This document shows positions 5,501 to 55,734 of a DNA stretch of 55,734 nt, one piece after another. The first letter of the stretch is position 1. The number at the start of each line of letters is the position of its first letter. The DNA lies in NCBI GenBank assembly GCA_004102785.1, contig SCEJ01000018.1, positions 1 to 55,734 on the forward strand. Direction: 5' to 3'. The notes below the pieces were generated by a model. That model saw only the letters and a program-made list of their open reading frames with translations. It made no database searches and was not told where the DNA came from. Made by a program: the position numbers and the translations under genes. Origin of the DNA: Muribaculaceae bacterium Isolate-013 (NCI). Lineage in GTDB: Bacteria; Bacteroidota; Bacteroidia; Bacteroidales; Muribaculaceae.

Positions 5501-6416
5501 ATTCGAGGTGCTCAAGCGCGCCGTCAGGGGTGTGGTTATGTCGCAGACCGAGGCCGAGCTTCTTCCCGGCGCCACTCTGGCTCTGACTGCAACCGTGATG
5601 CCTGAGGACGCTACCGACAAGACTGTGACATGGACCTCCTCCGACGAGGCCGTGGCAACTGTCGACGCCGAAGGCAACGTCACCGCCGTAGCTCCCGGCC
5701 AGGCCGAGATTACCGCAACTTCCAACGGCTTCATTGCCGTGTGCGACCTTACGGTAAGCCCCGTGAAGGCTCAGTCGGTGACCCTCTCCGCCTCTGAGGC
5801 CGAACTCACCGAAGGCGACACCTTCCGGCTCACTGCCGAGGTGGCTCCCGCCGATGTCACTGACAAGACCGTGACATGGACCTCCTCCGACGAGGCTGTG
5901 GCCACCGTCGACGCCAGCGGCCTTGTTACCGCCGTGGCTCCCGGCTCCGCCACCGTGACCGCCTCATGCGGCGAAGCGTCGGCAACCTGCGAGGTCACCG
6001 TAAACGCCCGTGTAATCGAGGTTACCGGCATCACTCTCGACAAGACTTCGATATTCGGCGCCCCCGGCAATAGCGAGCAGCTCTCAGCCGAGGTGACTCC
6101 CGCCAATGCCACTGACGAGACCGTGACCTGGACCTCCTCCGACGAGGCTGTGGCCACTGTCGACGCCAACGGTCTGGTTGCGTTCATCGCCGACGGCGAA
6201 GCCGTGATAACCGCCTCGTGCGGCGGATTCTCCGCCACCTGCGATGTGAAGGTGGTTTCATCGGGGCTCGCCCTCATCCCGGCCGACATGCGCAACGACG
6301 CCCGCGTCTACACCCTCGGCGGCGTAGAGGTCAAGGCCGAGAACCTCAATCCCGGGTTCTACATCGTGACCTACCTCCGCGACGGTGTGCGCGTATCCTC
6401 CAAAATACGTCTTTGA
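2508..6416 (+). CDS. giant secreted protein with choice-of-anchor-J-like and Big2 domains
   Basis: About 1,302 residues. I chose the ATG at 2508 because it begins a clean signal peptide (MKKLYTMLLGAAIPLMGYADA); the frame runs 21 codons further upstream but without signal character. The N-terminal two thirds alternates jelly-roll-like modules with the choice-of-anchor J signature (DDWLIGP, DEWLISP, DDYLLSP, DDWAIHG) and fibronectin type III-like linkers (AP..L.V.PG.., LTWTNPST). Then come three Big2 Ig-like domains, each with VTWTSSDEAVATVDA. A short T9SS-like tail ends in NPGFYIVTYLRDGVRVSSKIRL. Function: probably surface adhesion or glycan contact (inference). The next gene follows after 23 bases and has the same architecture, so the two form an operon and are likely paralogues. 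Confidence 0.85.
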   Translation: MKKLYTMLLGAAIPLMGYADAKTVPYQSTFYQDEEWVVHNLNNDDKTWEDNDNSTDFSGSGFSVGKTYHYHRDNQADDWLIGPAIHLEAGKQYKVKFYLRTQGSDAEDVTLYIGTSDQPAELKESTALIEFVDHKDTAGAYHAKAFTVPATGDYHFGIYAYSPKYRYNIKITGFQVREDVFTPGAPTNLTVIPGADRALQARLAWSLPVKDLDGEDIPAGYTYDEVRITRDGVLLNTPQLAGDATEFTDTEAYGLTSGKHTYEVVSVVNGAASPAATVVSRYIGPIAPMAIPFSALTDTWSADDDFETLWSTDKGRGSDQSQSWSLYSTTWGDIVKSLRYYSSTSMDEWLISPPMNFAEAGVYRVSYNASFATEASTLTMYTGTGTTLGGYTDAFAEITGKLVKDSPVYGYISVDTPCQKQLAFHTDCSSTGWNYYDIYDIKVEKWHLAPAQIADLAASVSDDGEQVILTWTNPSTTNTGDPLAAITKHIVYCDGEMIATVTDNLTPGAAASYTHTDPAPGIHTYYVETYSGDEKADGTPMQVTSAWVGDESQTVPYSTYFTDATRPIWTGFDGNADGITFVYPDTDASSKPTLAKVSEVTQHDDYLLSPYFNIDKPGYYNVRFAVAGGAYGYKLEMGHVADKKNVAASFVKTGDDFSMNGNYSSSYFEQMFHFDAPGRYAMALHTVNTGNPATSSDRAIEVSQFLVEYVPVNPARPEDFTASPAPGNELKAVLKWTNPTESNFEGVTPVIAKAVISRKQGYALFEEVGVVTEGLEPGEEFTWYDETLTTPGIYKYQVVLEGPEGKDGSAYAQATTTWVGPGYSLPVSVHMDDSDPDLSSTEWSIYNVNGDSNYYVGEITWEKLSGSIGITSNNAEDTDDWAIHGFYQFDKGDEYKFTVRNYTSNTTTTDWELWLGDSDHYDGMTVKLADITTPAEQYVKEDHSFILVVTDGADDSDAPEAQSAGDNAALPRFNVAPGATAIGLHLAQRGQVSVSGFAFEVLKRAVRGVVMSQTEAELLPGATLALTATVMPEDATDKTVTWTSSDEAVATVDAEGNVTAVAPGQAEITATSNGFIAVCDLTVSPVKAQSVTLSASEAELTEGDTFRLTAEVAPADVTDKTVTWTSSDEAVATVDASGLVTAVAPGSATVTASCGEASATCEVTVNARVIEVTGITLDKTSIFGAPGNSEQLSAEVTPANATDETVTWTSSDEAVATVDANGLVAFIADGEAVITASCGGFSATCDVKVVSSGLALIPADMRNDARVYTLGGVEVKAENLNPGFYIVTYLRDGVRVSSKIRL
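5625..6167 (+). repeat. three near-identical DNA repeats inside the Big2 domains
   Basis: The segments 5625-5669, 5871-5915 and 6123-6167 (45 bases each) encode the same stretch VTWTSSDEAVATVDA and differ at only a few, mostly silent, positions. The spacing is about 246-252 bases, one Big2 domain. Such DNA identity suggests recent duplication or gene conversion and could allow domain number to vary. Confidence 0.75.
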
Positions 6417-6439
6417 TTATGTAACCTAATATCACGAAT

Positions 6440-10996: not shown

Positions 10997-11025
10997 CCCG
11001 CCCCTACTCCCGGATTACTCCCGGA

Positions 11026-11061
11026 TGTGGCGCGCTTTCCGGCGCGCCACATTCTTTTTTA
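11026..11061 (+). terminator. rho-independent terminator
   Basis: Arms TGTGGCGCGC (11026-11035) and GCGCGCCACA (11042-11051) pair perfectly around a six-base loop and are followed by TTCTTTTTT. It closes the operon of the two giant secreted proteins. Confidence 0.85.
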
Positions 11062-11093
11062 TAAGTATTGAACGGAGTTTCAAAAAAAAGCAT

Positions 11094-11101
11094 TACCTTT
11101 G
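11094..11101 (+). promoter_or_regulatory. -7 box for the phospholipid operon
   Basis: TACCTTTG matches TAnnTTTG and lies 38 bases before the psd start. A TTTG at the ideal distance is not evident; TTG at 11068-11070 is slightly too far. Confidence 0.5.
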
Positions 11102-11139
11102 TAAATTAATATCGGAATCGACATACCCATGATAACGAC

Positions 11140-11823
11140 ATGAGAGTAAAAATACACCGCGAAGGTACCAACATATTGATTTTTCTGTTCCTGGCACTAT
11201 TGGCAGTAAATGTTCCGCTTTGGCTCTGGTGCTCGGCATGGCCATGGCTGTGGATCACAGTCACGGCAGCGTCTGCTGTATTCTATATGCTGGTGGTCAA
11301 CTTTTTCCGCAGCCCCAGGCGCCATTTCCCCGGTAAGCCGGCGAATGCGGTGGTGTCGGCGGCCGACGGCAAGGTTGTGGCTCTCGAGGAGACTTTCGAG
11401 CCGGAATTCCTCAAATGCCGGTGCATACAGTTGTCGGTGTTCATGTCGCCGCTCAATGTGCATGCCAACTGGTTTCCGGTCGATGGCGAAGTGATTTACG
11501 CACGCCACCACAGCGGGCGTTTCCAGGCGGCTTATCTACCGAAGTCATCCACCGAGAACGAGCGCTCTACTGTGGTGATACGCACCACAGGCGGACAGCT
11601 CGTGCTGATGCGCCAGGTGGCCGGAGCCATGGCCCGACGCATCGTGACCTACGCCAAGCCCGGCGACGAGGCCTCTGTCGAGGACCACATGGGTTTCATA
11701 AAATTCGGTTCGCGAATAGACCTGTATCTCCCTCTGGGCACAGAGATTTTTGTGAAAATCGGCGACGCCACTGTGGGCGGTGTCACCCAGGTGGGGCTTC
11801 TCAAAGGTAATACAACTGATTGA
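11140..11823 (+). CDS. psd: phosphatidylserine decarboxylase
   Basis: 227 residues, the length of the short, soluble-type Psd family common in Bacteroidetes. It makes phosphatidylethanolamine from phosphatidylserine. Two hydrophobic segments at residues ~10-52 anchor it to the inner membrane. The conserved core FMSPLNVHANWFPVDG (101-116) is clear. The self-cleavage site Gly190-Ser191 (KFGSRIDLYLP) would split the proenzyme and create the pyruvoyl group. It is followed after 4 bases by pssA, which makes its substrate, so the two form one pathway operon. Confidence 0.95.
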   Translation: MRVKIHREGTNILIFLFLALLAVNVPLWLWCSAWPWLWITVTAASAVFYMLVVNFFRSPRRHFPGKPANAVVSAADGKVVALEETFEPEFLKCRCIQLSVFMSPLNVHANWFPVDGEVIYARHHSGRFQAAYLPKSSTENERSTVVIRTTGGQLVLMRQVAGAMARRIVTYAKPGDEASVEDHMGFIKFGSRIDLYLPLGTEIFVKIGDATVGGVTQVGLLKGNTTD

Positions 11824-11827
11824 CAAA

Positions 11828-12580
11828 ATGTTACGACGCATTATAACATCCGTACCCAATTTCCTTACCTGCTGCAACCTCCTGTCGGGGTGCCTGGCCT
11901 GCATATGCGCCTTCTCTTTCAACCACGACATAGAGCAGCTCGGAGGACTCAACGGGCGTCAGCTCGCCTGGATTCTAGTAGGACTGGCGGCGGTGTTCGA
12001 TTTCTTCGACGGCGCGGCCGCCCGATGGCTCAACGCTCCCTCGCCGCTGGGTAAGGAGCTTGACTCGCTGGCCGACCTTGTGAGCTTCGGCGTGGCTCCC
12101 TCGCTACTGCTTTACAATATCCTCCAGGTATGGACCGATTCGTGGTGGATTCCCTTCGTGGCCCTCTTTATCCCCGCCATGGGAGCGCTCCGCCTGGCCA
12201 AGTTCAACATCGATGACTCGCAGGCCACCGAGTTCAAAGGGCTGCCGATTCCGGCCAACGCCATCTTCTGGATCGGAGCCACGGCCTGGATGCAGAGCCA
12301 TGCCCAGGAATGGATCAAGAGCCACGTCTACTGGGGCAACCTCATAGTGAGCGTGGTGATTATCGGAGTGGCGCTGATGATGGTAATGGATATGCGCATG
12401 TTCTCGCTGAAACTCAAGAATTTCCGCATCGGCGAGAATCTCTTCCGCTACCTGCTGCTGATAGGCGCCGCAATATTCGTCGGTGTGTTCGGCGTGGAGG
12501 GCTTCGCCTACACCATCATCCTCTATTTCGTGCTGTCGGTGCTGGCTCTCGCCCGCAAAAAGTCAGCCCGCGCCGCCTGA
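11828..12580 (+). CDS. pssA: CDP-diacylglycerol-serine O-phosphatidyltransferase
   Basis: About 250 residues, an integral membrane enzyme that joins CDP-diacylglycerol and L-serine to phosphatidylserine, the substrate of the decarboxylase encoded just upstream. The CDP-alcohol phosphotransferase motif D-G-x2-A-R-x8-G-x3-D-x3-D is complete (DGAAARWLNAPSPLGKELDS then LAD). Several membrane helices follow. I chose the ATG at 11828 (MLRRIITSVPN) because it begins just after the psd stop and matches family N-termini; the frame also runs upstream into psd. Confidence 0.93.
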   Translation: MLRRIITSVPNFLTCCNLLSGCLACICAFSFNHDIEQLGGLNGRQLAWILVGLAAVFDFFDGAAARWLNAPSPLGKELDSLADLVSFGVAPSLLLYNILQVWTDSWWIPFVALFIPAMGALRLAKFNIDDSQATEFKGLPIPANAIFWIGATAWMQSHAQEWIKSHVYWGNLIVSVVIIGVALMMVMDMRMFSLKLKNFRIGENLFRYLLLIGAAIFVGVFGVEGFAYTIILYFVLSVLALARKKSARAA

Positions 12581-12658
12581 CAGGCGGCTTGCGCCGCCAT
12601 CCAAACTTTTGCATGGTGGCATTGTTATCAAATTAGTGTTAATTAGAGCATAGTCAGT

Positions 12659-13045
12659 TTGGGAACTTTTTTTCTCATACTCTTTCTGATATTTATCTTC
12701 TACTTTGTGGTGCGCCCCGTATATCGGATATGGAGTGCGGTGAAGCGCGCGCAGAAGCAGCAGAAAGATTTTATCAACTCAATGTTCGGCGCCCGGGGAG
12801 CGGATGAGGCTCAGACCGATGCTGACGCTGAGGCCAATGAGCGTGCCCGCCGCAAAGGCGGGTGGAGCGCTCCCCGCAAAAAACGGAAGAAAATCGACCC
12901 CGAGGTGGGCGAATTTGTGAAATTCAAGGAGACGGTGGTGTCGGAGCAGGATACTAAAACGTCCTCCGACGGCTCCGGGGCATCATTCACCGCCGAGGAG
13001 CAGATAACAGATGTGACCTGGGAAGACCTCCCTCCGGAGGACTGA
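12659..13045 (+). CDS. DUF4834 family small membrane protein
   Basis: 128 residues. An N-terminal membrane helix (FFLILFLIFIFYFVVRPVYRIW) is followed by a charged, soluble tail with KRAQKQQKDFINSMFG and basic KKRKK. This is the layout of the Bacteroidetes-specific DUF4834 family, whose function is unknown. No ATG precedes the membrane helix, so the start must be the TTG at 12659 or another rare codon. It lies 78 bases behind pssA and may be in the same transcript. Confidence 0.7.
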   Translation: MGTFFLILFLIFIFYFVVRPVYRIWSAVKRAQKQQKDFINSMFGARGADEAQTDADAEANERARRKGGWSAPRKKRKKIDPEVGEFVKFKETVVSEQDTKTSSDGSGASFTAEEQITDVTWEDLPPED

Positions 13046-13084
13046 CCTTCGGAAGTGTCAATGCGCATGATTCCGATGTTTTGC

Positions 13085-13104
13085 GGTCGCGACAGGTCGC
13101 GACC
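13085..13104. repeat. palindromic intergenic unit
   Basis: GGTCGCGAC-AG-GTCGCGACC is a perfect 9-base-arm palindrome followed by CTACA. The GGACGCTC-type pair at 41867-41954 has the same right flank (CCCTACA). It may be a related class of REP-like unit. Confidence 0.45.
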
Positions 13105-13170
13105 CTACATCTGCTGATATAATTTTTATAAATCTTATGGATTTTAAATTAGTATAAGTTTTACTCTCCG

Positions 13171-13881
13171 ATGAAGCAGAAATCATATATCCCTGATCTT
13201 TATGAGTTTCTTGAGCAGCTTGGGCGCCGCCAGGACCGTGAGTGGTTCCGCGCCAACCGCGGCCGCTACGATGAGCTGCGTTCGCTGTGGCTCGCCGACC
13301 TTGACCGTCTGATTGCTCTGATTGGGGAATGGTGGCCAGATGTGAAGGGGATGACGGCCCGCTCGGCCGCCTACCGCATATACCGCGACACGCGGTTCTC
13401 AGCCGACAAGTCGCCTTTCAAGTCCTATTTCTCGGCCGGATTCTCACGCTACGGGCGTTCGGCTTCGACGGCTCACCTGCCTGGTCTGTATCTGCAGATG
13501 GGGCCCGGACGCTTTGCCGAGAGTGTCGACTCGGGGCTTTTCGGCGGCGTATGGCAGCCTTCGTCGGCCGACCTGCGCAAGCTGCGCCGCGCCATCGTCG
13601 ACAATATCGAGGAGTTTGAGGAAATAACTTCGGCGCTCGAGAGTTCAGGCAAATATCATGGCTGGTGGGGCGAACGCCTCAAGACCATACCCAAGGGGTA
13701 CGACCGCAACCATCCGCAGGCCGAACTGCTGCGCCTGAAGGAATATGGCCGTTTTATGCCAGCCGATATGGATTATTTCAACGATCCGGCCTGGCCCGAG
13801 AAGGTGGCCGACGACTTCCGCCCCCTCCGCCCCATGCTCGATTTCTTCACTTATTCTTTGGAAGAGGAGCTGTTCGACTGA
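13171..13881 (+). CDS. DUF2461 (TIGR02453) family protein
   Basis: 236 residues, full length for the family. Typical features are visible: LYEFLEQLGRRQDREWFRANRGRYDE near the start, AYRIYRDTRFSADKSPFKSYF at ~67-87, GLYLQMGPG, and the end FFTYSLEEELFD. The family is widespread in bacteria and fungi and its biochemical role is not established. It ends 72 bases from the convergent rRNA/tRNA modification gene, with a long inverted repeat between them. Confidence 0.9.
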   Translation: MKQKSYIPDLYEFLEQLGRRQDREWFRANRGRYDELRSLWLADLDRLIALIGEWWPDVKGMTARSAAYRIYRDTRFSADKSPFKSYFSAGFSRYGRSASTAHLPGLYLQMGPGRFAESVDSGLFGGVWQPSSADLRKLRRAIVDNIEEFEEITSALESSGKYHGWWGERLKTIPKGYDRNHPQAELLRLKEYGRFMPADMDYFNDPAWPEKVADDFRPLRPMLDFFTYSLEEELFD

Positions 13882-13890
13882 AGTTTTTTT

Positions 13891-13948
13891 ACAATACGAC
13901 CGGTGGCGCAATTGCCTGCTGAGGCAATTGCGCCACCGGTCGTATTGT
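13891..13948. repeat. 27-base perfect inverted repeat between convergent genes
   Basis: Arms at 13891-13917 and 13922-13948 pair without mismatch around a four-base loop (ACAATACGACC... / ...GGTCGTATTGT). It could end transcription from both sides, but the only T-run (GTTTTTTT) is upstream of the hairpin on the plus strand, so the geometry is not that of a normal terminator. It may be a REP-like palindrome. Confidence 0.7.
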
Positions 13949-45451: not shown

Positions 45452-45858
45452 GCAAACATACTGATAACGCGAGTTCGGGATAAGGAACACCATAAAAAAG
45501 CTGCCGATTCTTTTGGTAATATCACTGATATTTAGTAATTTAGAGGTGCCAAACAATAAATACTATATCATGATTACCGAAAGTAAAGTTACAGAAAAAT
45601 CTCTGGAATAACCGACAAAAGAGGTTGAAATGTCACTGAAATGGCTATCATTAAAGCGTTTACAGTGCCAAATGAAGCCAACCGCAAAAAACGGGAAACG
45701 CAAAGGAAAGCAGTTCTATGAAGCAGAACGGTTTTCAAATCGTTACCCGAAGCGGAACGCATTTTTAACGCTCCCTGCAATGATTGCGCCGTTCTGCGCC
45801 GATTTGCTTATCAAGGTCTAACTCGTTGAGTAATAACTTTGCAAACAAAAAAACGAGT
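45452..45858. other. left end region of the integrative element
   Basis: No well-supported gene. A 26-codon reading frame at 45641-45721 begins MAIIKAFTVPNEANRKKRET and might be a real small peptide, but a second frame overlaps it. The stretch is expected to hold the left attachment site; I cannot fix its position without the empty site. Confidence 0.35.
45834..45841 (+). promoter_or_regulatory. -7 box for the integrase gene
   Basis: TAACTTTG matches TAnnTTTG and ends 17 bases before the integrase ATG. A TTTG at normal spacing is missing, so the box may be weak or helped by a factor. Confidence 0.45.
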
Positions 45859-47088
45859 ATGGCAAGAAGTACATTCAAAGTGCTGTTCTACGTGAACGGC
45901 AGCAAGGAGAAAAACGGTATTGTCCCCATCATGGGACGAGTGACAATCAACGGGACTGTGGCGCAGTTCAGTTGCAAGCAGAGTGTCCCGAAGACGCTTT
46001 GGGACATCAAGGGCAACCGAGCCAAAGGCAAGAGCAAGGAGGCACGGGACATCAATTTAGCTTTGGACAACATCAAGGCGCAAATCATCAAACACTACCA
46101 GCGCATATCCGACCGTGAAGCGTTCGTGACTGCGGAAATGGTGCGCAATGCCTATCAGGGTATCGGCAACGAGTACGAGACACTGCTAAAAGCGTTCGAC
46201 CGTGAGAACGAGGTTTTCAAGAAGCGTGTCGGCAAGGACAGAGTAATGGCAACCTACCGTTCACGGGTAGTGGCAAGAAACCATGTGGCAGCATTCATCA
46301 AGTCTTTCTACAGACGGGCTGATATGTCCATGCTCGAACTTACGCCCGACTTCATCAAGGAGTTTGCCGCCTACCTCTCAACGGAAGCAGGACTGCGCAA
46401 CGGGACGATATGGGAAAAGTGTATGTGGCTGAAAGGTGTAGTTATGCGTGCGCACTTCAACGGACTGATACCGAGAAACCCGTTTGCCCAATTCCACATC
46501 AGCCCGAATGTAAAGGAGCGTGAATACCTGACGGAAGACGAACTGAAAGCGTTAATGACGCACGAGTTCGGGGATACCAAACTGTCCTATATCCGTGATA
46601 TTTTCGTTTTCGCCAGTTTCACCGCCCTCTCTTTCGTGGACATCAAGGAACTGACCAATGACAACATCGTGGAAGTGAACGGTGAGAAGTGGATATTATC
46701 GAAACGGCACAAGACGAAAGTACCGTTCCAAGTGAAACTGCTGGATATTCCCTTGCAGATAATAGAGCATTACCGCCCCTTGCAGGAGGATAATCTCGTG
46801 TTCCCCAACCTCAACTACTGGTCTATCTGCAAACCTCTGAAAAAGGTGATGAAAGAGTGCGGGATAACAAAAGACATCTCGTTCCATTGCTCAAGACATG
46901 GGTTCGCGACCCTTGCTTTGAGTATGGGTATGCCGATTGAAAGCGTAAGCCGTGTTTTGGGACACACGAACATAGTCACGACCCAAATCTACGCCAAAAT
47001 CACAACACAGAAATTGGATAACGACCTTACCATGCTCGGCAACAGGCTGAACCAATCGTTTAACAATGTATCAATGGCAGGACAATGA
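45859..47088 (+). CDS. tyrosine recombinase (integrase)
   Basis: 409 residues. It would integrate and excise the element. An arm-binding N-terminus (MARSTFKVLFYVNGSKEKNG) and a SAM-like core-binding domain (~110-210) precede the catalytic domain: HCSR (His343, Arg346), LGH (His369) and the nucleophile Tyr378 in TTQIYAKI. The first catalytic Arg is replaced: the box reads ASFTALSFVDIKELT, as in other Bacteroides integrases such as IntDOT. The ATG at 45859 fits the family; its stop overlaps the next ATG. Confidence 0.93.
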   Translation: MARSTFKVLFYVNGSKEKNGIVPIMGRVTINGTVAQFSCKQSVPKTLWDIKGNRAKGKSKEARDINLALDNIKAQIIKHYQRISDREAFVTAEMVRNAYQGIGNEYETLLKAFDRENEVFKKRVGKDRVMATYRSRVVARNHVAAFIKSFYRRADMSMLELTPDFIKEFAAYLSTEAGLRNGTIWEKCMWLKGVVMRAHFNGLIPRNPFAQFHISPNVKEREYLTEDELKALMTHEFGDTKLSYIRDIFVFASFTALSFVDIKELTNDNIVEVNGEKWILSKRHKTKVPFQVKLLDIPLQIIEHYRPLQEDNLVFPNLNYWSICKPLKKVMKECGITKDISFHCSRHGFATLALSMGMPIESVSRVLGHTNIVTTQIYAKITTQKLDNDLTMLGNRLNQSFNNVSMAGQ

Positions 47089-47459
47089 AAAGGAATATCA
47101 TCAAAATCACAGAACACGGTACGATAACTATACCGAGTGAAACGGTATGGATGAGCGAAGCGGAACTTGTCAGCCTGTTCGGTGTTATCGCTCCATCCGT
47201 CCGTACTGCAATCAAAGCAGTCTATAAAAGCGGAATACTGAAAGAGCATCATGCACAACGGTATATCCGCCTGTCGAACAAATGCAGCATGGATGTTTAC
47301 AGTTTTGAAATGGTTGTTGCCCTCGCTTTCCGTATTAACTCATACAGAGCGAAACAGGTACGCAAAGCCGTAATTGAAAGGCTGTACTTGCGAAAAGAGC
47401 AAACAAGCATCTTCTTTTCGCTGGGTAATAGAATTAAAATGCCTAAGTATCAAGCATAA
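47085..47459 (+). CDS. small RhuM-like or regulator-like protein
   Basis: 124 residues. A possible helix-turn-helix-like segment (WMSEAELVSLFGVIAPSVRTAIKAVYKSG) is followed by YIRLSNKCSMDVYSFEMVVALAFRINSYRAKQVRKAV. The pattern resembles the N-terminal part of RhuM-family proteins and small genes next to integrases of Bacteroides mobile elements. It is coupled to the integrase by ATGA. Control of excision is possible (inference). Confidence 0.6.
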   Translation: MKRNIIKITEHGTITIPSETVWMSEAELVSLFGVIAPSVRTAIKAVYKSGILKEHHAQRYIRLSNKCSMDVYSFEMVVALAFRINSYRAKQVRKAVIERLYLRKEQTSIFFSLGNRIKMPKYQA

Positions 47460-47574
47460 AATATATAGATATGACGACATGAAGTAATGAAACCGATGCG
47501 TATTCCCATTGCCGACAATTCATTTACACGAGTGTTTGAATAGGCGCATGGCCATTCATTCATACGAATGCGAC

Positions 47575-47622
47575 AATCCCGAAGAAACTGTCATTAAAGT
47601 GGTATTTCTTCGGGATTTCTTG
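47575..47622 (+). terminator. terminator after the integrase operon
   Basis: AATCCCGAAGAAA (47575-47587) pairs perfectly with TTTCTTCGGGATT (47605-47617), followed by TCTTG. The T-rich tail is short. It lies in the 305-base gap between the integrase operon and the helicase gene; the rest of the gap shows only a promoter-like box. Confidence 0.65.
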
Positions 47623-47719
47623 TTGTCAAGTTCTCCGATATACTGCAAGTTTTTCATTCCGTGTGTTTTTTGCGCCATTCTGCCGTGATTTGCGTATCAA
47701 GGTTTCAAGCAACCCTCTC

Positions 47720-47727
47720 TAATTTTG
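47720..47727 (+). promoter_or_regulatory. -7 box for the helicase gene
   Basis: TAATTTTG matches TAnnTTTG and lies 37 bases before the start of the helicase gene. The nearest TTTG (47689-47692) is 27 bases away, too far for the usual spacing. Confidence 0.4.
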
Positions 47728-47764
47728 CATACGATTATTTATCAACCATTTAAGCGTATGAACA

Positions 47765-48970
47765 ATGAGTAAATCAGACATCAGCAAAGAGGAGTTTATC
47801 CGAGTTGGTACGACCCTCTACAAGTTAGTGAACCAGCCCCGACTGGACGGCGGCTACGTGAAGAAACGCATCGTGTGGAACAACGAAACATTACGGCAGG
47901 ACTATGGCAAACACTATCTCGCTACCGTCCCCAAGTATGACGGCTTCTGCACGGTTCCCGACCATGTGAATTACCGTCCGATAGTGGACAAGTTCCTTAA
48001 CCTCTATGAACCGATAGACCACAAACCGATGGAGGGCGATTTTCCCTTTATCCGTTCGTTGGTGAAGCACATCTTCGGGGAGCAATACGAGTTGGGAATG
48101 GACTACCTACAGCTGCTATATCTGCAACCCATCCAAAAACTGCCTATCCTGTTGTTGGTATCGGAAGAACGCAATACAGGCAAAAGCACATTCCTGAACT
48201 TTCTGAAACTCCTCTTTCAGAACAATGTAACTTTTAACACCAACGAGGACTTCCGAAGCCAGTTCAATTCCGACTGGGCAGGGAAGCTCCTTATCGTGGT
48301 GGATGAAGTGTTATTAAGCCGCAGGGAGGATAGCGAGCGATTAAAGAACCTCAGTACCACGTTGTCCTATAAGGTGGAAGCCAAAGGCAAAGACCGTGAC
48401 GAAATAGTGTTCTTCGCCAAGTTCGTGCTGTGTTCCAACAACGAGTATCTGCCCGTCATCATAGATGCAGGGGAAACACGTTATTGGGTGCGCAAGATAG
48501 ACCGCTTGCAGTCCGATGATACCGACTTCCTGCAAAAGCTGAAAGCGGAGATACCTGCTTTCCTCTACCATTTGCAGCACAGGCCGCTCTCCACCGAAAA
48601 AGAGAGCCGTATGTGGTTTGCACCGTCGTTGCTGCATACCGAAGCCTTGCGGAAGATTATCCGCAGCAACCGCAACCGATTGGAGATAGAGATGTGCGAA
48701 CTTGTACTTGACATCATGGCAAGCACAGGTATCGACACTCTCTCTTTTTGCTGCAATGACATTCTCACGCTGCTGGCAAACTCGTATGTCAAAGCGGAGA
48801 AGTACCAAGTAAGGAAGGTATTGCAGGAGTGTTGGAAGCTCACGTCTGCACCGAACGGGCTGACATATACCACCTACCAACTGAACTACAATCGGGAATG
48901 TCGGTATGAGCCGATAAGGAGAGTGGGACGTTTCTACACCGTCACAAGGCAGCAACTTGAAACTCTGTAA
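47765..48970 (+). CDS. superfamily 3-like helicase/primase (DUF5906 type)
   Basis: 401 residues. Walker A is SEERNTGKST (133-142), Walker B KLLIVVDEV (~174-182) and a downstream motif VLCSNNE matches the SF3/P4-like helicase fold (phage or plasmid replication initiators, VirE-type annotation in Bacteroides elements). A C-terminal winged-helix-like part ends the protein. It likely unwinds the excised circle so that the element can be copied or prepared for transfer. The primase gene follows. Confidence 0.82.
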   Translation: MSKSDISKEEFIRVGTTLYKLVNQPRLDGGYVKKRIVWNNETLRQDYGKHYLATVPKYDGFCTVPDHVNYRPIVDKFLNLYEPIDHKPMEGDFPFIRSLVKHIFGEQYELGMDYLQLLYLQPIQKLPILLLVSEERNTGKSTFLNFLKLLFQNNVTFNTNEDFRSQFNSDWAGKLLIVVDEVLLSRREDSERLKNLSTTLSYKVEAKGKDRDEIVFFAKFVLCSNNEYLPVIIDAGETRYWVRKIDRLQSDDTDFLQKLKAEIPAFLYHLQHRPLSTEKESRMWFAPSLLHTEALRKIIRSNRNRLEIEMCELVLDIMASTGIDTLSFCCNDILTLLANSYVKAEKYQVRKVLQECWKLTSAPNGLTYTTYQLNYNRECRYEPIRRVGRFYTVTRQQLETL

Positions 48971-49034
48971 TTCCATTGTCTTTTTGTTGAATTGTTGAAT
49001 AAGAATATAATTCTACTGATAATAAGCAATATAC

Positions 49035-49140
49035 ATTCTCAACAAAATCTCAACAGGCCAAAAGAGAAGTTGAGCATAAAGCCACAACCTATTGTCGGCT
49101 TCTCTTTGGGCGAGTGGTTTGTTGAGCGGATGTTGAGAAT
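49035..49140. repeat. nested inverted repeats between helicase and primase genes
   Basis: Three segments pair concentrically: ATTCTCAAC (49035-49043) with GTTGAGAAT (49132-49140), CTCAAC (49049-49054) with GTTGAG (49121-49126), and CCAAAAGAGAAG (49058-49069) with CTTCTCTTTGGG (49099-49110). The whole can fold into one long stem of about 106 bases. Placed between two replication genes, it could be an origin, a primase loading site or an mRNA structure. The 74-codon frame over it looks like a by-product. Confidence 0.6.
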
Positions 49141-49223
49141 CTATTTGCATGGATATAAGCATATTACATATACCATTCAACGAATCAACGATTTTCATTT
49201 ACCATTAAAACCATAGGAAGATT

Positions 49224-50189
49224 ATGACTACACAGGAAGCAAAGAAGATACGCATCGCATACTATCTGCAAAGTTTGGGCTATAACCCCGTCAAGCAGCA
49301 GGGCAAAAGCCTTTGGTACAAATCACCGTTCAGGGAGGAAACGGAAGCCTCGTTCAAGGTGAACACCGAACTCAACCAATGGTACGACTTCGGAACAGGC
49401 AAGGGCGGCAACATCATCGCTTTGGCGCAGGAGCTTTACGGTTCGGACTATGTGCCTTACCTGCTTGGCAAGATAGCGGAACAAGCACCGCACGTCCGTC
49501 CCGTGTCTTTCTCTTTTCGCCAGCAGGCATCCGAACCGAGTTTCCAACATTTGGAAGTGAGAGAACTCACGCACCCTGCATTGCTCCGTTACTTGCAGGA
49601 GCGTGGAATAAACACCGCATTGGCGCAAGCGGAATGTAAGGAACTGCACTTCGTCCACAACGGTAAACCCTATTTCGCCATAGGGTTCCCGAATGTGGCT
49701 GGAGGATATGAGGTGCGCAACCGTTTCTTCAAAGGATGCATTGCCCCAAAGGACATCAGCCATATCCGACAGTCGGGAGAGCCGAGAGAGAAATGCCTCG
49801 TGTTCGAGGGAATGACGGACTATCTTTCATTCCTCACCTTGCGGATGAAGAACTGCCCGACCATGCCCAACCTTGACGGGCAGGATTACGTTATTCTCAA
49901 TTCCGTTTCCAATGTATGCAAAGCCATAGACGTGCTGCACGGGTATGAGCGCATACACTGTCTGCTCGACAATGACGAGGCAGGACGGAATGCGTATTGG
50001 GAACTGGCAGGAGAGTTTGCCGGACGTATCAGGGACTTCTCCCAAAACTACAACGAGCACAAAGACCTGAACGATTACCTGTGCGGCAAGCCCCTGTCCC
50101 AATCGGCAGAGCCGATAAAGCAGGAGAAGCAAGTCCAATCCGCAAGGCGGATGATGCAGCCACCGAAAAAGCGAGGGCTGAAGATGTAA
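49224..50189 (+). CDS. TOPRIM primase of the mobilizable element
   Basis: 321 residues. The N-terminal part has the CHC2-like layout (YLQSLGYNPVKQQGKSLWYKSPFREETEASF, WYDFGTGKGGNIIALA) but with no zinc cysteines or histidines, as in many mobile-element primases. The TOPRIM residues are Glu195 (KCLVFEGMTDYL) and Asp249/Asp251 (CLLDNDEAGRNAY). It would prime the transferred or unwound strand. Upstream lies the nested inverted repeat. Confidence 0.85.
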   Translation: MTTQEAKKIRIAYYLQSLGYNPVKQQGKSLWYKSPFREETEASFKVNTELNQWYDFGTGKGGNIIALAQELYGSDYVPYLLGKIAEQAPHVRPVSFSFRQQASEPSFQHLEVRELTHPALLRYLQERGINTALAQAECKELHFVHNGKPYFAIGFPNVAGGYEVRNRFFKGCIAPKDISHIRQSGEPREKCLVFEGMTDYLSFLTLRMKNCPTMPNLDGQDYVILNSVSNVCKAIDVLHGYERIHCLLDNDEAGRNAYWELAGEFAGRIRDFSQNYNEHKDLNDYLCGKPLSQSAEPIKQEKQVQSARRMMQPPKKRGLKM

Positions 50190-50239
50190 GGAGAGGATGC
50201 TTGCTGCGACACGGATATTTGCCAACAGAAAATACCGTA

Positions 50240-50299
50240 GCTTATTAGGGAATTTGTCCGAGCCGCATTGCAAGCAACGCTGAAAATTCCCCAATAAGC
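50240..50299 (+). other. candidate origin of transfer (oriT)
   Basis: GCTTATTAGGGAATTT (50240-50255) and AAATTCCCCAATAAGC (50284-50299) form an inverted repeat with one mismatch around 28 bases. It is located directly before the MobV relaxase gene, where oriT is expected. Two further small hairpins follow (AGAGGATGCACCTCT at 50303-50317; ACGGCAAAAGCCGT at 50336-50349). The nick site is not identified. Confidence 0.55.
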
Positions 50300-50402
50300 C
50301 AAAGAGGATGCACCTCTCTGGACACTCCCCAACCAACGGCAAAAGCCGTAAAGGAGAAACCATCAACCATTGTTTCACAAGTTAAAAAGAAAGGATTTAT
50401 AT

Positions 50403-51707
50403 ATGGGTTATGCAGTATTACACATGGAGAAGACAAGCGGAACGGATGCCGCCATGTCAGCGCACATAGAGCGCATCATCAAACCGAAGAATGCCGATGA
50501 GAGCAGGACGCACCTAAATCGGGAACTGATAAGGTTTCCTGACGGGGTGGAGAACAGGACACAAGCCATACAGCACCGACTGGACACCGCAGGACTGACA
50601 CGCAAAATTGGCAACAATCAAGTGAGGACTATCCGTGTCCTGCTTACGGGAACGCACGAGGATATGGAACGCATCACCAACGAGGGCAGACTTGATGAAT
50701 GGTGCAGCGACAATCTGAAATACCTTGCCGACACATTCGGCAGGGAGAATATCGTGTCGGCAGTCCTGCACATGGACGAGCAGACACCGCACATACACGC
50801 CACCCTTGTTCCGATAGTCAAGGGAGAGCGCAAGCGCAAAAAGAAAGAGGAACAGGTTAAGAAGCGATACCGCAAGAAGCCGACAGGCACAGCCCGATTG
50901 TGTGCCGATGAGATTATGACACGCGCCAAACTCAAATCCTATCAGGACACCTACGCCCAAGCTATGAGCGGTTACGGGTTGCAGCGTGGCATAGACGGCT
51001 CGGAAGCGAAGCATATCACCACACGGCAGTATTACCGTGACCTGATGCAGCAGACGGAACAGTTACGAACAGACATAGGGCAACTTCAAGACCGCAAGGA
51101 AACGGCACAGGAGGAACTTAGGCGAGCCAAGAAGGAGGTACAGACCGAGAAGCTGAAAGGGGCAGCTACGACTGCAGCCACTAACATAGCAGAAAGTGTA
51201 GGTTCTCTTTTCGGAAGTAATAAGGTCAAGACATTGGAAAGGGAAAATGCAATCTTACAAAATCGCATTTCTGAACTTGAAGATGAAGCCCAAAAACGTG
51301 AAGAACGGCAAGCCAAACAGATGCAGGATATGAAAAGCGCATACGAGCAACAGAACCGCAGGTTGTCCGAGTTCGTGGATTTCGTCAAAAGCTATTTTCC
51401 ATATGTGGAGAAACTGATGCCGACAATAAAGTTCCTGCGTGATACTCTGAATTTTGGCGATGCCGTCATTAGAAAACTATGCACGTTCAAGGATGTTTCC
51501 ATTAGAGGCGAACTATATTCCCGTGAATTTAACAAACATTTTAAAACTGACGGTGCAGTTTGTTCACTCAAACAGGACACAGAAGGAAATTTTGAACTCA
51601 ACATAGACGGCATTTCACACGTTAGCTGGTTCAGACGAAAGAAAGGCGAGTTCATAGAAGCGTTGGGAATGCCTGCAAAAAGCAAAAATAGAGGAATGAA
51701 TTTATAA
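50403..51707 (+). CDS. MobV-family relaxase
   Basis: About 434 residues from the ATG at 50403 (MGYAVLHMEKTSGT). The Pre/Mob HUH motif is HMDEQTPHIHATLVPI (123-138), and the N-terminal HIERIIKPKNADESRTHLNREL segment holds the expected catalytic surface. A long coiled coil (~225-330) and a C-terminal globular region follow. It would nick oriT and lead the strand into a helper pore. The frame upstream (50370) adds 11 residues without family match. Confidence 0.9.
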   Translation: MGYAVLHMEKTSGTDAAMSAHIERIIKPKNADESRTHLNRELIRFPDGVENRTQAIQHRLDTAGLTRKIGNNQVRTIRVLLTGTHEDMERITNEGRLDEWCSDNLKYLADTFGRENIVSAVLHMDEQTPHIHATLVPIVKGERKRKKKEEQVKKRYRKKPTGTARLCADEIMTRAKLKSYQDTYAQAMSGYGLQRGIDGSEAKHITTRQYYRDLMQQTEQLRTDIGQLQDRKETAQEELRRAKKEVQTEKLKGAATTAATNIAESVGSLFGSNKVKTLERENAILQNRISELEDEAQKREERQAKQMQDMKSAYEQQNRRLSEFVDFVKSYFPYVEKLMPTIKFLRDTLNFGDAVIRKLCTFKDVSIRGELYSREFNKHFKTDGAVCSLKQDTEGNFELNIDGISHVSWFRRKKGEFIEALGMPAKSKNRGMNL

Positions 51708-51766
51708 AATTGGCCTCCTAAGTCGTAATAATTAGCCTATTATAAGGAATTTATTACGGCTTTTTG

Positions 51767-51774
51767 TACCTTTG
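51767..51774 (+). promoter_or_regulatory. -7 box for the two-gene cargo
   Basis: TACCTTTG matches TAnnTTTG exactly and would give a leader of about 62 bases to the ATG at 51843. No TTTG lies at the right distance, so expression may need an activator. Confidence 0.5.
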
Positions 51775-51842
51775 TAATCACATTAAATATCCGATTTATC
51801 AATCGAAACAATAAGGCGTCTATACTAGAAAGTAAGTATAAT

Positions 51843-54755
51843 ATGACTCAAAAAATAAACCATAAGCAAATTGTTTCCGAAAGGAATACATATTTTTCAT
51901 CTCTTATTTCTCAAAAAGCATATTGGACTACAGAAGAAATATTGAGCATTTCTAGGGACTTGCTTACTCCTTTTAAAGGTCTAAAAGAAGATAACATAGA
52001 ACCATCAATCGAAGTTTCTATGTTATATGATATAGTATATTTACTTCCGTATAAATTAGAATGCTACAAATCTGTGGTTAATGCCTTATACGAAAATAGG
52101 GGTATGGCTTGCGATGATTTAACAATAAATGTTTTCAATGCTGATTGCGGGATTGATTCTATTGCTTTTGTTTGTGCATTAATAAACAAAGGTTATAAAA
52201 TCGAGGATATTAAAACCATTCGCTTATTTTCGTCTAATGAGGAGAAGCTTAAACGTGCAGTATTGCTTCATAAAAAGTTATATGCTTCTATTCCATTAGA
52301 AGCATATAATATGGATATAAAAGAAATAAACGATGAATGCATGTGCAATTCATTGCTCACAATCAATCTTTTTGCTCATACCTTTAATCTTGCTAAGGAT
52401 ATTCATAAAGAAATATCTCGTATTATTATTGGTTCGCATTATATATATTCCCACTCAATATTCTTTGAAAACATTTCTTCCAATAGAATGCCGCAAGTCT
52501 CAGGTCTTGATTGTAACTTCTATTGGCAAGACTTAAATATTTGTCGTTTTTACAAGAATGATTCGCGTAATTTCTCATTTGACTCGGTGAATTCTATTGA
52601 GGGCGAAAGATATTATGCAAAATATGCTATTTTTTCAAACTTGTCGTTTGAAACATTAGATATTAAACACGAATATCAAATTGTGTTAAGTGGTTTATGT
52701 CCCGGTGTACCAATTAATACACTGTTTAATCAAAAAAGAACTTCTTTGTTTTTTGACCGACCGTTCCAAAACAAAAACCTATGTAATGAGGTTGACAATA
52801 CGAATGTAGTGATGCAAGGCATAGATTATAATAGAGTTTGGGACGACACTAAGGTTGATTACACACTAAGAAAAATCATTGAGGAATTTCCTCAATACTC
52901 CATTAGTGAAGGATTGGATAATAATGAGGAATGGGCACACGAAGTTATTGCTTACTACCTTAATGCTGCTGAAAATGGAAATACACAATGTTATAACAAT
53001 ATTGGGGTTCTTAAATCTCTTAGCAACTGTTTGAGTGATGACTCTAAAGATATTAATTCTGAACGGAATAAAGAGATTGTTGGTTTCTTTACGTTAGCTT
53101 CAAAAGGTGGAGATGTAAATGCAATGATAAACCTTGCTTCGCTATATATGTTTTTTGAAGATTATTCGAATGCTATTAACTATTATAAGATGGCTTCTGA
53201 TAATGGAGAAGCAGCAGGATCATATTCTATGGGGATTGTTTATCACTTTGGATTGTATGGCAACTCTAAGAACGAAGATTTAGCTATAAAATATTACAAA
53301 AAAAGTATTGAACAATACTTGAAAGAAATCGAGACAGATATTTCAAGTTGTACACCTATCAGTAATTGCTGCCTCAATCTTATAATTTTGATGTATGAAA
53401 ACGGATGTACTTTATGCGATATAACGAAAGAATTTAATAAAATTAAAAAGGCTTCATCTGAGCTCACTTATGCTTATACTGTAATAAGTAATAACCTTTC
53501 CAATAAAGCAAAAGATTTCTTCAAAGTATTAAAGTTGAAATCACCAGACAAGGACGAACCTGCTTTTGTTACTTATAATCGCATTTGTGCGCTCTATAAT
53601 GGTATAAAGAACGGAAATGACAGTTTAAAATCTGATAAGGCATTAGCTTTAGAACAACTTAAAAAATTAGCGAATACAGAATGCCCTAACTGGCCCGATT
53701 GGGAAAAATATGTTTGGTGTAAATTGGCTTTATGGACGAATCAAGCCAAAGAAAGTTCTGCCACATATTCAACATATTGGATAAAAGCGAGCAACGCAAA
53801 TCCTAAAAAATCTTGTGCATATCGTACAAATATGGCTTCATGTAGTCAATTAGACGAAGAAGAAGTTATGGCTATATGGCATAAATATGCTTATGGAAAT
53901 GGGTGCGAAACATGTCACGAATGTTCTTCATATGATAAAACCTCAAGGTGCTGCCCAAAAGCTCAATTTAACTGGGCACGTAAATACGAGAAAGATACAG
54001 CAGTAACCGAGTTCCTTATGAAGGCAGCAATGCGTCAAGGTTATAATGCTGCACTTCAATATTTAGCTATTGATAAAGTTAAAGATGAACTTTTGCCAGA
54101 TGTGGAGGTGAGTCCTCTTGACAACTTCTTTTTTAATTGGGGTACTATTCCATCTGCTTATAGACAAATTATACCTGAATTTACTTCAGATAGTCGTTAT
54201 AAACTTTTGTGTCGTGCAGCTGATAATGGAAGTAGGAAAGCTGTATCTTTATTAGTAGAAGTTTCAAAACTGAGAAATAGCAATTTAGAAAACATTTATT
54301 GGTCAGCACTCACAGCAAGAATATCAGAACAAATTTCAATTCTTCAAAAAATTACTAATAAGAGTTTTGATAATGATTTCTTTAGAGCAAGTAGCCTTGC
54401 AGAACAAGATCTTATTGCTTTATCTAATAAACGAGCTGAACAGTTCATCGGAGAGAAAGAAGATGCTTTCGCTTTCTTAAAAACATTAGCAGAATTTTAT
54501 GTTCGTGGCGAATTGTATTCTAAGGCTGTTGAACTCTACAAAATTGCTGCGAACAAAGGCTTTGATGTAAACAAACGAATTGATGAACTTGAAGAAGAAA
54601 TTAAACAAATAAATAGAGATTATTCTTATGACCAAGATTATGACTATTATGAAGAACCAGATTATGCACAAGACACTTGGGACGCAATGACAGATGGAAT
54701 GTATGGTGACATGCCTGATGGTTTCGATGGTGATTATGATTTCTTAGGGAGATAA
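51843..54755 (+). CDS. large Sel1-like repeat protein with degenerate methyltransferase-like N-terminus
   Basis: 970 residues, no signal peptide. Residues ~93-180 look like a Rossmann methyltransferase core that has lost its SAM motif: INVFNADCGIDSIAFVCAL where DxGxGxG is expected, IRLFSSNEEKLKRA where an acidic residue would bind ribose, then YNMDIKEIND and a hydrophobic strand. Residues ~365-500 and ~860-910 carry Sel1/TPR-like helical repeats (AINYYKMASDNGEAAGSYSMG, LYSKAVELYKIAANKGF). A cysteine cluster (C688, C691, C694, C703, C704; GCETCHEC...CC) may bind a metal. The last 45 residues are very acidic (DQDYDYYEEPDYAQD...). Codons are much more AT-rich than the host's. It is followed after ~20 bases by a metalloprotease gene. 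Function unknown; a protein-interaction scaffold, perhaps in defence, is inference. Confidence 0.75.
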   Translation: MTQKINHKQIVSERNTYFSSLISQKAYWTTEEILSISRDLLTPFKGLKEDNIEPSIEVSMLYDIVYLLPYKLECYKSVVNALYENRGMACDDLTINVFNADCGIDSIAFVCALINKGYKIEDIKTIRLFSSNEEKLKRAVLLHKKLYASIPLEAYNMDIKEINDECMCNSLLTINLFAHTFNLAKDIHKEISRIIIGSHYIYSHSIFFENISSNRMPQVSGLDCNFYWQDLNICRFYKNDSRNFSFDSVNSIEGERYYAKYAIFSNLSFETLDIKHEYQIVLSGLCPGVPINTLFNQKRTSLFFDRPFQNKNLCNEVDNTNVVMQGIDYNRVWDDTKVDYTLRKIIEEFPQYSISEGLDNNEEWAHEVIAYYLNAAENGNTQCYNNIGVLKSLSNCLSDDSKDINSERNKEIVGFFTLASKGGDVNAMINLASLYMFFEDYSNAINYYKMASDNGEAAGSYSMGIVYHFGLYGNSKNEDLAIKYYKKSIEQYLKEIETDISSCTPISNCCLNLIILMYENGCTLCDITKEFNKIKKASSELTYAYTVISNNLSNKAKDFFKVLKLKSPDKDEPAFVTYNRICALYNGIKNGNDSLKSDKALALEQLKKLANTECPNWPDWEKYVWCKLALWTNQAKESSATYSTYWIKASNANPKKSCAYRTNMASCSQLDEEEVMAIWHKYAYGNGCETCHECSSYDKTSRCCPKAQFNWARKYEKDTAVTEFLMKAAMRQGYNAALQYLAIDKVKDELLPDVEVSPLDNFFFNWGTIPSAYRQIIPEFTSDSRYKLLCRAADNGSRKAVSLLVEVSKLRNSNLENIYWSALTARISEQISILQKITNKSFDNDFFRASSLAEQDLIALSNKRAEQFIGEKEDAFAFLKTLAEFYVRGELYSKAVELYKIAANKGFDVNKRIDELEEEIKQINRDYSYDQDYDYYEEPDYAQDTWDAMTDGMYGDMPDGFDGDYDFLGR

Positions 54756-54776
54756 CATTATGAATCATTGAGCAAT

Positions 54777-55307
54777 ATGAAACTTTTTCATTATACAAGT
54801 TATAAGGAATTTAACACTTTCGAGGAATTGTACAAATCCAATGCATACGCAGTTTGTAACCTATTAAAAAAGTTCTCTGTTAATGTACATACTATAGGAG
54901 AGTACAAGGAGTTGTTAGAACAATACCCAAAACTTCCAGTCATTGAGGATATTGATAAAGATTTGTTTGGTTGTTGTGTTTTAAAAGAAACAAATGATGC
55001 AAAAGATACAATTTCGGGAATTATAATTAATGATGAACTATGTTCACAGCTGAAACTTACTACCAATGATAAATTAGCTGCAATTGCCCATGAAATAGGA
55101 CATATCATGTTTTTCTTTCTTAAAAACAAGCAAACTGATGAAGAATTTAAAGCAGATGAATTTGCTTGCCAAATGGGTCTCTCTGTAGAACTATTTGGAT
55201 TATTGGAAAAACTTCAAAAATCTGATATATACAATAAGCATACGACAAGGCTATTAGAGTTAAGATTAAAGGCTATAAAAAAGTATAGACATTATTTCAA
55301 TGCATAG
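54777..55307 (+). CDS. HEIGH zinc metalloprotease (ImmA/IrrE-like)
   Basis: About 176 residues from the ATG at 54777; a TTG at 54768 is an alternative. The zinc motif is AIAHEIGHIMF (His105, Glu106, His109), and Glu123 in DEEFKADEFA is the probable third ligand, the gluzincin pattern of ImmA/IrrE and small M48-like enzymes. The ~100-residue N-terminal part is unrelated to anything I recognise. In phages and plasmids such enzymes cut a regulator; here no XRE-type regulator is next to it, and the natural partner is the 970-residue protein just upstream. The pair looks like one operon. Confidence 0.8.
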   Translation: MKLFHYTSYKEFNTFEELYKSNAYAVCNLLKKFSVNVHTIGEYKELLEQYPKLPVIEDIDKDLFGCCVLKETNDAKDTISGIIINDELCSQLKLTTNDKLAAIAHEIGHIMFFFLKNKQTDEEFKADEFACQMGLSVELFGLLEKLQKSDIYNKHTTRLLELRLKAIKKYRHYFNA

Positions 55308-55320
55308 AAAAATCTAATTC

Positions 55321-55351
55321 TTTGCCAAATAAAAGAATTTGTGTACTTTTG
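55321..55351 (+). promoter_or_regulatory. Bacteroidetes-type promoter
   Basis: TTTG (55321-55324), 19 bases, TACTTTTG (55344-55351) is an exact match. It ends one base before the ATG of a short reading frame, so any leader is extremely short or the start is downstream. Confidence 0.6.
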
Positions 55352-55352
55352 C

Positions 55353-55463
55353 ATGGAGTTTCTTGAAAAGCAATTCAAAGCAGAATGCAACAACAAGAAC
55401 GGTTGGCAATTCGTTACCTCAAAATCGGGTTATCTACCTAAAGTACTTATTATAAAGGGATAA
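55353..55463 (+). CDS. short ORF truncated near an IS982-family element
   Basis: 36 residues (MEFLEKQFKAECNNKNGWQF, then VTSKSGYLPKVLIIKG) behind a strong promoter. The stop lies directly before, and in frame with, the coding start of the IS982-type transposase. The IS end may therefore have cut a longer gene near 55435-55460. No family is recognisable from so short a piece. Confidence 0.4.
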   Translation: MEFLEKQFKAECNNKNGWQFVTSKSGYLPKVLIIKG

Positions 55464-55734
55464 GGATTATATTCCAAAGTTACACAAATTTTTTGTATTG
55501 CCGATGATTTCTGCAAGGAATTTGAGGTTGAGATGGCAAAAAACGCCCTTCCGTCCACAACTGACACTCCAAAACGGAAAAGAAAGCGCATGATGTCGGA
55601 TGCCGAGGTCATCACGATTCTGATCTGTTTCCACTTCAATTCGTACCGAAACTTCAAGCACTATTATCTGGGATGTGTGCGCATTCACTGGAAGCATCTG
55701 TTTCCGCAGACATTCTCCTACAACCGCTTCGTGG
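55464..55734 (+). CDS. IS982-family transposase, 5' part, runs off the window
   Basis: The frame is open from 55464 to the edge and encodes VTQIFCIADDFCKEFEVEMA, MMSDAEVITILICFHFNSYR, FKHYYLGCVRIHWKHLFP and SYNRFV, the N-terminal pattern of IS982-family transposases in Bacteroides. No ATG precedes the conserved start; the first in-frame ATG is at 55533, inside the domain. The start codon may be lost or non-standard, so the gene could be defective. Only ~90 residues are seen. Confidence 0.75.

Follow-up and report, generated by a model that had tools for sequence, protein, structure and literature searches.

A Bacteroidales mobilizable element with exchangeable cargo behind its relaxase, and a C-terminal peptide recurring on otherwise unrelated proteins

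The closest described relative of the element examined here is the blaMUN-1 genomic island, a 7.6-kb unit known from Bacteroides uniformis pBUN1 (our locus L118) and others, whose published gene list is that of L118 (PMC10989005). Its order, with integrase, small gene, helicase, primase and plasmid recombination enzyme followed by cargo behind the relaxase, is also that of an integrative mobilizable element within a 55,734-nucleotide stretch of contig SCEJ01000018.1 from Muribaculaceae bacterium Isolate-013 (NCI), hereafter called the window; the same backbone order occurs in NZ_AP019725.1. The cargo of the window element, behind its MobV relaxase, consists of two genes of low G+C content, a gene for a 970-residue Sel1/TPR-like protein that ends in a short conserved peptide (the tag) and a gene for a HEIGH metalloprotease. 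The relaxase of the island is 67.7% identical to that of the window, but its cargo is a beta-lactamase, and no Sel1 protein, protease or tag was found there. Likewise, the right end of the window element has no match at E ≤ 1e-3 in the pBUN1 stretch that carries blaMUN-1.

A second described system, Pycsar, occupies the corresponding position in a sister element from IMG/VR (L103), between a close relaxase and a common right end. It differs from the window cargo in comprising a cyclase and a membrane effector, and no HEIGH protease or tag was found with it. Both window proteins also resemble known families. The large protein shares weak Sel1 (PF08238) and TPR matches and a solenoid-like match with the Sel1-like repeat proteins, which partly upholds the repeats of the original prediction; however, its Sel1 score of 23.2 bits lies under the curated cut-off of 30.7, and it has long additional N- and C-terminal regions as well as the tag. 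The protease displays the hallmark of Peptidase M48, an HExxH motif with a downstream ExxAD motif, in line with the gluzincin assignment made earlier; the key residues are invariant in all six aligned sequences, and among them E123 would be the third zinc ligand. Compared with Peptidase M48 (Ste24, BepA) and small gluzincins such as selecase, it scores 18.4-18.5 bits, under the M48 cut-off of 20.3, and gave no Foldseek match at E ≤ 0.001. Ste24 and BepA have further parts for which a 176-residue protein is too short. Effector-associated adaptor domains of bacterial conflict systems are short folded modules that recur on different sensors and effectors; the tag, in contrast, is an acidic C-terminal peptide of ~27 residues and has no Pfam match.

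Alignments of related elements show a conserved backbone with variable, exchangeable contents behind the relaxase. The copy of the element in another genome of the same family (L082) aligns to the window at 45660-47423 (77.9%), 47786-51652 (78.9%) and 55356-55493 (75.7%), and the window cargo, between 51652 and 55356, is unmatched in this DNA alignment. L082 carries a trypsin-like protease and a HEIGH protease instead. Because the two HEIGH proteases are only ~30-34% identical, varying with the alignment, far below the 71-85% of the backbone proteins, the whole cargo seems to have been swapped between these two elements. In L103, whose relaxase is close to that of the window (92% DNA identity over 878 bases; 70% protein identity over residues 1-422), a radical-SAM peptide cluster and a Pycsar pair (models PycTM, E 3.5e-28, and PycC, E 6.1e-36) lie between the relaxase and the shared right end. 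Upstream, L103 has different, minus-strand integrase-like frames, so that its left part differs from the window. L085 retains the right end together with a relaxase remnant and a trypsin-like plus HEIGH pair. The variable contents are thus followed by a common right end in the window, L082, L103 and L085; it was not found in the other 15 of the 17 stretches searched, pBUN1 included, some of which stop too early. Behind related relaxases, L118 carries blaMUN-1 and L102 a UvrD-type helicase resembling GajB models. This survey was made without L100, L104 and L113, where a contig end or truncation is too near, and without the more distant relaxases of L105, L106 and L114-L117. The original prediction of cargo behind the relaxase of a mobilizable element is therefore upheld, with Pycsar at that position in the sister element; neither gene matches a conjugation gene, and the locus does not look like housekeeping.

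The element might also bring its own expression signals. A terminator-like hairpin follows the relaxase gene in the window, and it has a counterpart at the same place in L082 (-17.0 kcal/mol) and, by eye, a comparable inverted repeat in L103. Directly behind it stands TACCTTTG, at the position that TACTTTTG takes in L082 and L103. The former resembles the Bacteroides -7 promoter box, consensus TAnnTTTG. With hairpin and box at like places in three elements, the element may supply a terminator and, judged by this consensus, a promoter for any cargo.

Exchangeable cargo as such follows a familiar pattern; the C-terminal tag is a new and general finding. A family search with the whole 970-residue protein returned, beside repeat matches, matches limited to the last ~50-65 residues in otherwise unrelated proteins, and a profile of these tails gave 35 tag loci in the genome collection and 1 in IMG/VR. 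The consensus reads W-D-A-M-T-D-G-[MQ]-Y-G-D-M-P-x-G-F-D-G-D-x-x-F-L-G-x, the window form, DTWDAMTDGMYGDMPDGFDGDYDFLGR, making up the last ~27 residues. Its invariance and its C-terminal place are partly by construction, since the scan of genome contigs used the exact patterns WDAMTDG or [MQ]YGDM[PT][ED][GC] and the first list of tagged proteins demanded the motif ≤60 residues from the end. Less biased is a scan of fetched DNA with no end condition, in which the distance from motif to stop codon was 17-26 residues in 59 of 59 matches, re-fetches included. Among 33 different tag sequences, Ala, Thr and Gly are each encoded by three to four synonymous codons although the residues stay the same. 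The constancy of the amino acids is biased by the pattern search, the synonymous variation less so; together they argue that the peptide is under selection and that no single piece of DNA was recently copied around, since synonymous sites vary where the residues do not.

Without their last 50 residues, the 42 tagged proteins collected (re-fetches of the same gene included) fall into a WG-repeat group of 31, four Sel1 proteins, a pair with an ExoX-like C-terminal domain and five singletons. The titles of the tag loci are nearly all Bacteroidales or Bacteroidia, with two metagenome-assembled genomes (MAGs) labelled Clostridia or Lachnospiraceae. Searches of whole genomes with the tag profile, likewise less biased, gave a single match in each of 10 other genomes out of 246 in the family. 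In the order, 4 other genomes out of 392 matched, two of them near E 0.0015 and chance-like, and in the phylum 1 other out of 295; one MAG has two tags (L056, L059). By these comparisons, the large protein belongs to a sparse, mostly Bacteroidales set of proteins with WG, Sel1 or other domains and a common short C-terminal tag. The tag also occurs as a frame of its own: 39 residues long in L053, after a retron-type reverse transcriptase (RT) and a 267-aa gene, and 40 residues long in L057, where it has a WYL protein on one side, a Cas-type cluster with Cas10 on the other, and AGGAGG before its ATG. These two loci, together with L066 (a 38-aa frame without a clear start) and L068 (a divergent C-terminus), make up the 4 of 35 that fell outside the first filter. 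In L120, ~0.5 kb separates a 51-aa frame with a divergent tag, LTDGMEGDYPGGDVDYDAYGF, from a 23-repeat CRISPR array.

The tag matches no Pfam family at E ≤ 0.5, and its profile matches no PDB sequence at E ≤ 5. A single 41-aa tail query found no match among plasmids and phages, a weak test with so short and acidic a query. In full-text literature, five-to-nine-letter pieces and look-alikes retrieved no paper on the tag, the single match being unrelated, and titles and abstract openings pointed to none on the tagged proteins. Beside the tagged WG protein of L047, a 511-aa neighbor (607-2142) has an acidic C-terminus of its own, YRDAFDGDPDADWNID, perhaps a second tag type.

Tagged proteins often have defence-type genes nearby. 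Queries for WYL, retron RT, DUF1016/YhcG, HsdR/HsdS, NERD-UvrD, Cas10, PLD, Schlafen, SIR2, Abi_2, TIR and type I methylase found such genes within the fetched stretch, up to ~8 kb away, in 22 of 37 tag loci, among them WYL in 11 and RT in 9. The count left out L002-L008, L033, L034, L050, L051, L059 and later re-fetches as duplicates or short stretches. It includes the near relatives L041 and L072, loci that share one arrangement (for example L044, L060 and L066), and two, L037 (SIR2) and L122 (TIR), whose only match is their own query, without recurrence. The main defence-type neighbors are supported by PADLOC and Pfam, in a scan of 78 of the 162 listed neighbor proteins plus 3 trypsin-like ones. 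None of the queried genes was present in the first 45 kb of the window or in its own element.

The arrangements around the tag recur in part. In L039, L042, L046, L052 and L056 (~6400-11000) a WYL gene, a tagged protein, a gap of 317-508 nt, a retron-type RT and a ~300-aa protein follow one another, with one further gene between the WYL protein and the tagged protein in L046; the gap could hold a retron RNA. In L057, where WYL protein, tag frame and Cas-type cluster lie within 6902-13918, the Cas10 gene (Cas10-Cmr2 palm, Pfam 2.5e-13) belongs to a cluster whose other genes look type III Cas-like by eye, and the CRISPR array of L120 (8810-10455) has ~72-nt spacing. In L058, the gene after the tagged protein (8174-9232) ends in NDDDDLPF, which resembles the tip of the bacterial SSB C-terminus; L044 has a relative (9019-10380) with an acidic stretch and YFKPF at its end. 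One family, f8, is encoded directly downstream of tagged WG proteins in L043 (8105-9481) and L045 (8099-9436), and a weak relative lies upstream in L122 (10127-10849); the longer members have paired CxxC motifs, and that of L045 has no Pfam match.

The features of the window element are compiled in Table 1.

Table 1. Features of the mobilizable element and its cargo, in window coordinates.
Feature	Position	Strand	Basis
Integrative mobilizable element, ~9.8 kb, ends approximate	45660..55493	+	DNA alignment to sister element L082
Left copy of 23-bp imperfect direct repeat, att-like	45725..45747	+	87% identical to 55396-55418
Tyrosine integrase	45784..47088	+	Pfam Phage_integrase 1.9e-16; L082 copy 84% identical
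Small gene	47085-47459		weak regulator-type matches
DUF5906 primase-helicase type protein	47765..48970	+	Pfam DUF5906 3.4e-23; L082 85% identical
Toprim primase	49224..50189	+	Pfam Toprim_2 2.7e-15; L082 85% identical
MobV relaxase	50370..51707	+	NCBIfam MobV 4.6e-65; L082 71% identical
Terminator-like hairpin, then T run, 3' of relaxase	51720..51762	+	fold -17.3 kcal/mol for 51706-51775
TACCTTTG, resembles Bacteroides -7 promoter box	51767..51774	+	position behind hairpin
Cargo gene 1, 970-aa Sel1/TPR-like repeat protein with C-terminal tag	51843..54755	+	profile matches, alignment
Residues 93-177, strand-helix alternation, possible Rossmann-like core	52119..52373	+	low-confidence model
Residues 359-557, Sel1/TPR-like solenoid	52917..53513	+	weak profile matches, solenoid-like match
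Residues 688-704, Cys cluster CETCHECSSYDKTSRCC	53904..53954	+	conserved in L054
C-terminal tag, residues 944-970, DTWDAMTDGMYGDMPDGFDGDYDFLGR	54672..54752	+	recurs C-terminally in otherwise unrelated proteins
Cargo gene 2, 176-aa HEIGH gluzincin-type metalloprotease (179 aa from TTG 54768)	54777..55307	+	alignment, profiles
HExxH motif HEIGH, residues 105-109	55089..55103	+	H105, E106, G108, H109 invariant in 6/6 aligned
ExxAD motif, residues 123-127	55143..55157	+	E123, A126, D127 invariant in 6/6 aligned
Right end of element	55356..55493	+	DNA identity 75.7% L082, 89.7% L103, 75.4% L085
Right copy of 23-bp imperfect direct repeat, att-like	55396..55418	+	pairs with 45725..45747

The pair of 23-bp repeats reached E 0.009 in a two-sequence search. 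Directly behind the right end, an open frame at 55533-55734 runs off the end of the window and looks by eye like the start of a transposase. Within L103, a single stretch (8838-13338) holds two radical-SAM-like proteins, called by eye with weak viperin-model matches, a 94-aa peptide with His-Ser-Ser repeats, and the Pycsar cyclase and membrane effector. On a B. finegoldii plasmid (L119:3227-7401), the integrase of a related element is preceded upstream by a helicase gene and by a gene annotated as Hachiman HamA.

Relatives of the whole large protein are rare. At E ≤ 1e-8 its profile found one among 333 other genomes of the order (G538), which seems to be the Tidjanibacter MAG that L054 comes from. 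The L054 protein, 48% identical over 909 residues, is the only full-length relative found; its gene sits behind a relaxase ~50% identical to that of the window, and C688, C691, H692, C694, C703 and C704 of the Cys cluster are kept. In 246 other family genomes the listed matches cover repeats or tail only, the 20 listed of 35 matching plasmid records cover repeats only, and IMG/VR gave no relative of the whole protein. The methyltransferase-like fold suggested earlier was not confirmed: no methyltransferase sequence match was found for the N-terminal region, residues 1-363 match no PDB sequence at E ≤ 1, and the model offers strand-helix alternation, at low confidence, in the segment listed in Table 1 only. 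The protease has four relatives in 148 other family genomes and four in 294 other order genomes, one shared with the family set and two weak; the weak ones, G349 (E 0.009) and G429 (E 0.005), were left out of the neighborhood analysis. IMG/VR gave none, and PADLOC gave weak matches to peptidase_U41 (0.0016) and RmrA (0.0051).

Both genes are real, as first described, but the dedicated two-gene unit then proposed is not supported, since homologues of the two are, as far as searched, mostly found apart. In L054 the next genes encode PLD-like (PLDc_2 5.1e-19) and Schlafen AlbA_2 (3.6e-13) proteins, not the protease. Within the fetched stretches, the HEIGH family was found in none of the 37 other tag loci and the tag in none of the 5 other protease stretches. 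The upstream neighbor in three of the five followed protease relatives is a trypsin-like protease (L082, L085 and, with one small gene in between, L083), while the relative in L081 follows a 142-aa protein and that in L084 adjoins a protein that is TIR-like by eye. A conserved protease-sensor pair is rejected on this separate occurrence as far as searched, and the earlier idea that the protease processes the large protein, or is restrained by it, draws on the window locus, the one place where the two were seen together.

We propose, at slightly less than even confidence, that both genes are accessory, most likely defence-type, cargo of the element whose parts are exchanged independently, combining a tagged sensor or scaffold with an exchangeable effector. 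While the exchangeable cargo and the tag are shown, the sensor-effector mechanism is one that we infer. The solenoid and N-terminal domain of the tagged repeat protein might respond to invasion or to damage, and its acidic tag, being exposed, could be a docking or regulatory peptide for a common partner. The downstream gene would encode the exchangeable effector, in the window a small zinc protease that could be released on a host or invader protein upon sensor triggering. What most strongly links tagged proteins to effectors is the occurrence of one downstream family with two different tagged proteins, since the PLD family that follows the tagged Sel1 protein in L054 also follows a tagged WG protein in L040 (59% identity).

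Several observations weigh against this proposal. The pairing of a tagged protein with a HEIGH protease is known from one locus only. The trypsin-like upstream partner at three of the five other protease loci has, by eye, a hydrophobic, signal-peptide-like N-terminus and may therefore work in another compartment, and its presence means that the HEIGH protein may neither target its neighbor nor be kept in check by it. We know of no function for any tagged protein, and found none; the structure model of the large protein is poor, and the protein has no PADLOC match at E ≤ 1. In fifteen of the 37 tag loci no defence-type gene from the query set was found (fourteen when the L120 CRISPR array is included), and the count of 22 has no genome-wide background and used queries that came from the tag loci themselves. 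The position behind the relaxase also holds non-defence cargo (blaMUN-1), and since L118, L119, L102, L101 and L054 showed no match to the right end, their cargo is placed behind the relaxase only.

Alternatively, the two would be independent cargo genes, sharing only a transcript and a position and each acting alone, which we regard as nearly as likely, if distinctly short of even. Neither gene keeps its partner elsewhere, and in L081 and L084 the protease has neither a trypsin-like nor a tagged neighbor. However, a gap of 12-21 nt and one apparent promoter serve the unit in the window, and multi-gene cargo recurs behind the relaxase (trypsin-like and HEIGH proteases in L082; Sel1, PLD and Schlafen proteins in L054), which suggests joint action.

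A broader proposal, which we consider unlikely, makes the tag a common connector of Bacteroidales immunity. As a short C-terminal plug, found also as a free microprotein, it would join otherwise unrelated repeat sensors (Sel1, WG, ExoX-like) to a single partner common to them all, from the host or with a regulatory role. Exchangeable effectors (HEIGH, PLD-like, f8) would be driven in this way, in the neighborhood of retrons, restriction systems and type III CRISPR.

It is improbable that the protease instead regulates the element in the manner of ImmA, inducing excision through cleavage of a repressor and leaving the tagged protein as the sole true cargo. Such a role would suit the place of the family protease, which is the last gene ahead of the right end in L082, in L085 and in the window, the integrase or relaxase sequences near 4 of the 5 followed relatives, and the weak regulator-type matches of the small gene at 47085-47459. 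Two of six family members also weakly match Peptidase_M78 (PF06114; best E 2.4e-4). The window protease itself has no such match at E ≤ 1, so ImmA/IrrE membership is not shown, and with M78 evidence this weak we did not accept it as a sure identity; an ImmA/IrrE chain is absent among the VIA-align and Foldseek matches listed, which excludes nothing. Moreover, no protease of this family turned up in the stretches fetched for L103, L118 and L102, its divergence from the L082 copy relative to the backbone makes it look exchanged and not inherited with the backbone, its G+C content of 29.9% is cargo-like, and its direct neighbor is the 970-residue gene, not an XRE-type repressor gene. It is similarly doubtful that the large protein is an anti-defence or stability factor of the element whose acidic tail imitates a docking peptide of the host or a nucleic acid: the tail is indeed strongly acidic, the gene lies on a mobile element and the tag also forms stand-alone frames, but such a factor need not have the defence-type neighbors seen in 22 of 37 tag loci, and charge mimicry needs no residue-by-residue conservation, though the pattern search favors such matches.

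One peptide at the end of otherwise unrelated proteins, with defence genes often close by, hints that Bacteroidales immunity has a connector not yet described. If the tag is truly a docking or control peptide, it would offer a sequence handle on new defence-type proteins of an order that is dominant in the gut. Several immune systems would then have its partner as a common node, and docking would explain how mobile elements can freely exchange sensors and effectors. Regardless of the role of the tag, the cargo behind the relaxase in one element family ranges from a known anti-phage operon and proteases to an antibiotic-resistance gene and tagged proteins, making this position a practical place to look for new systems.

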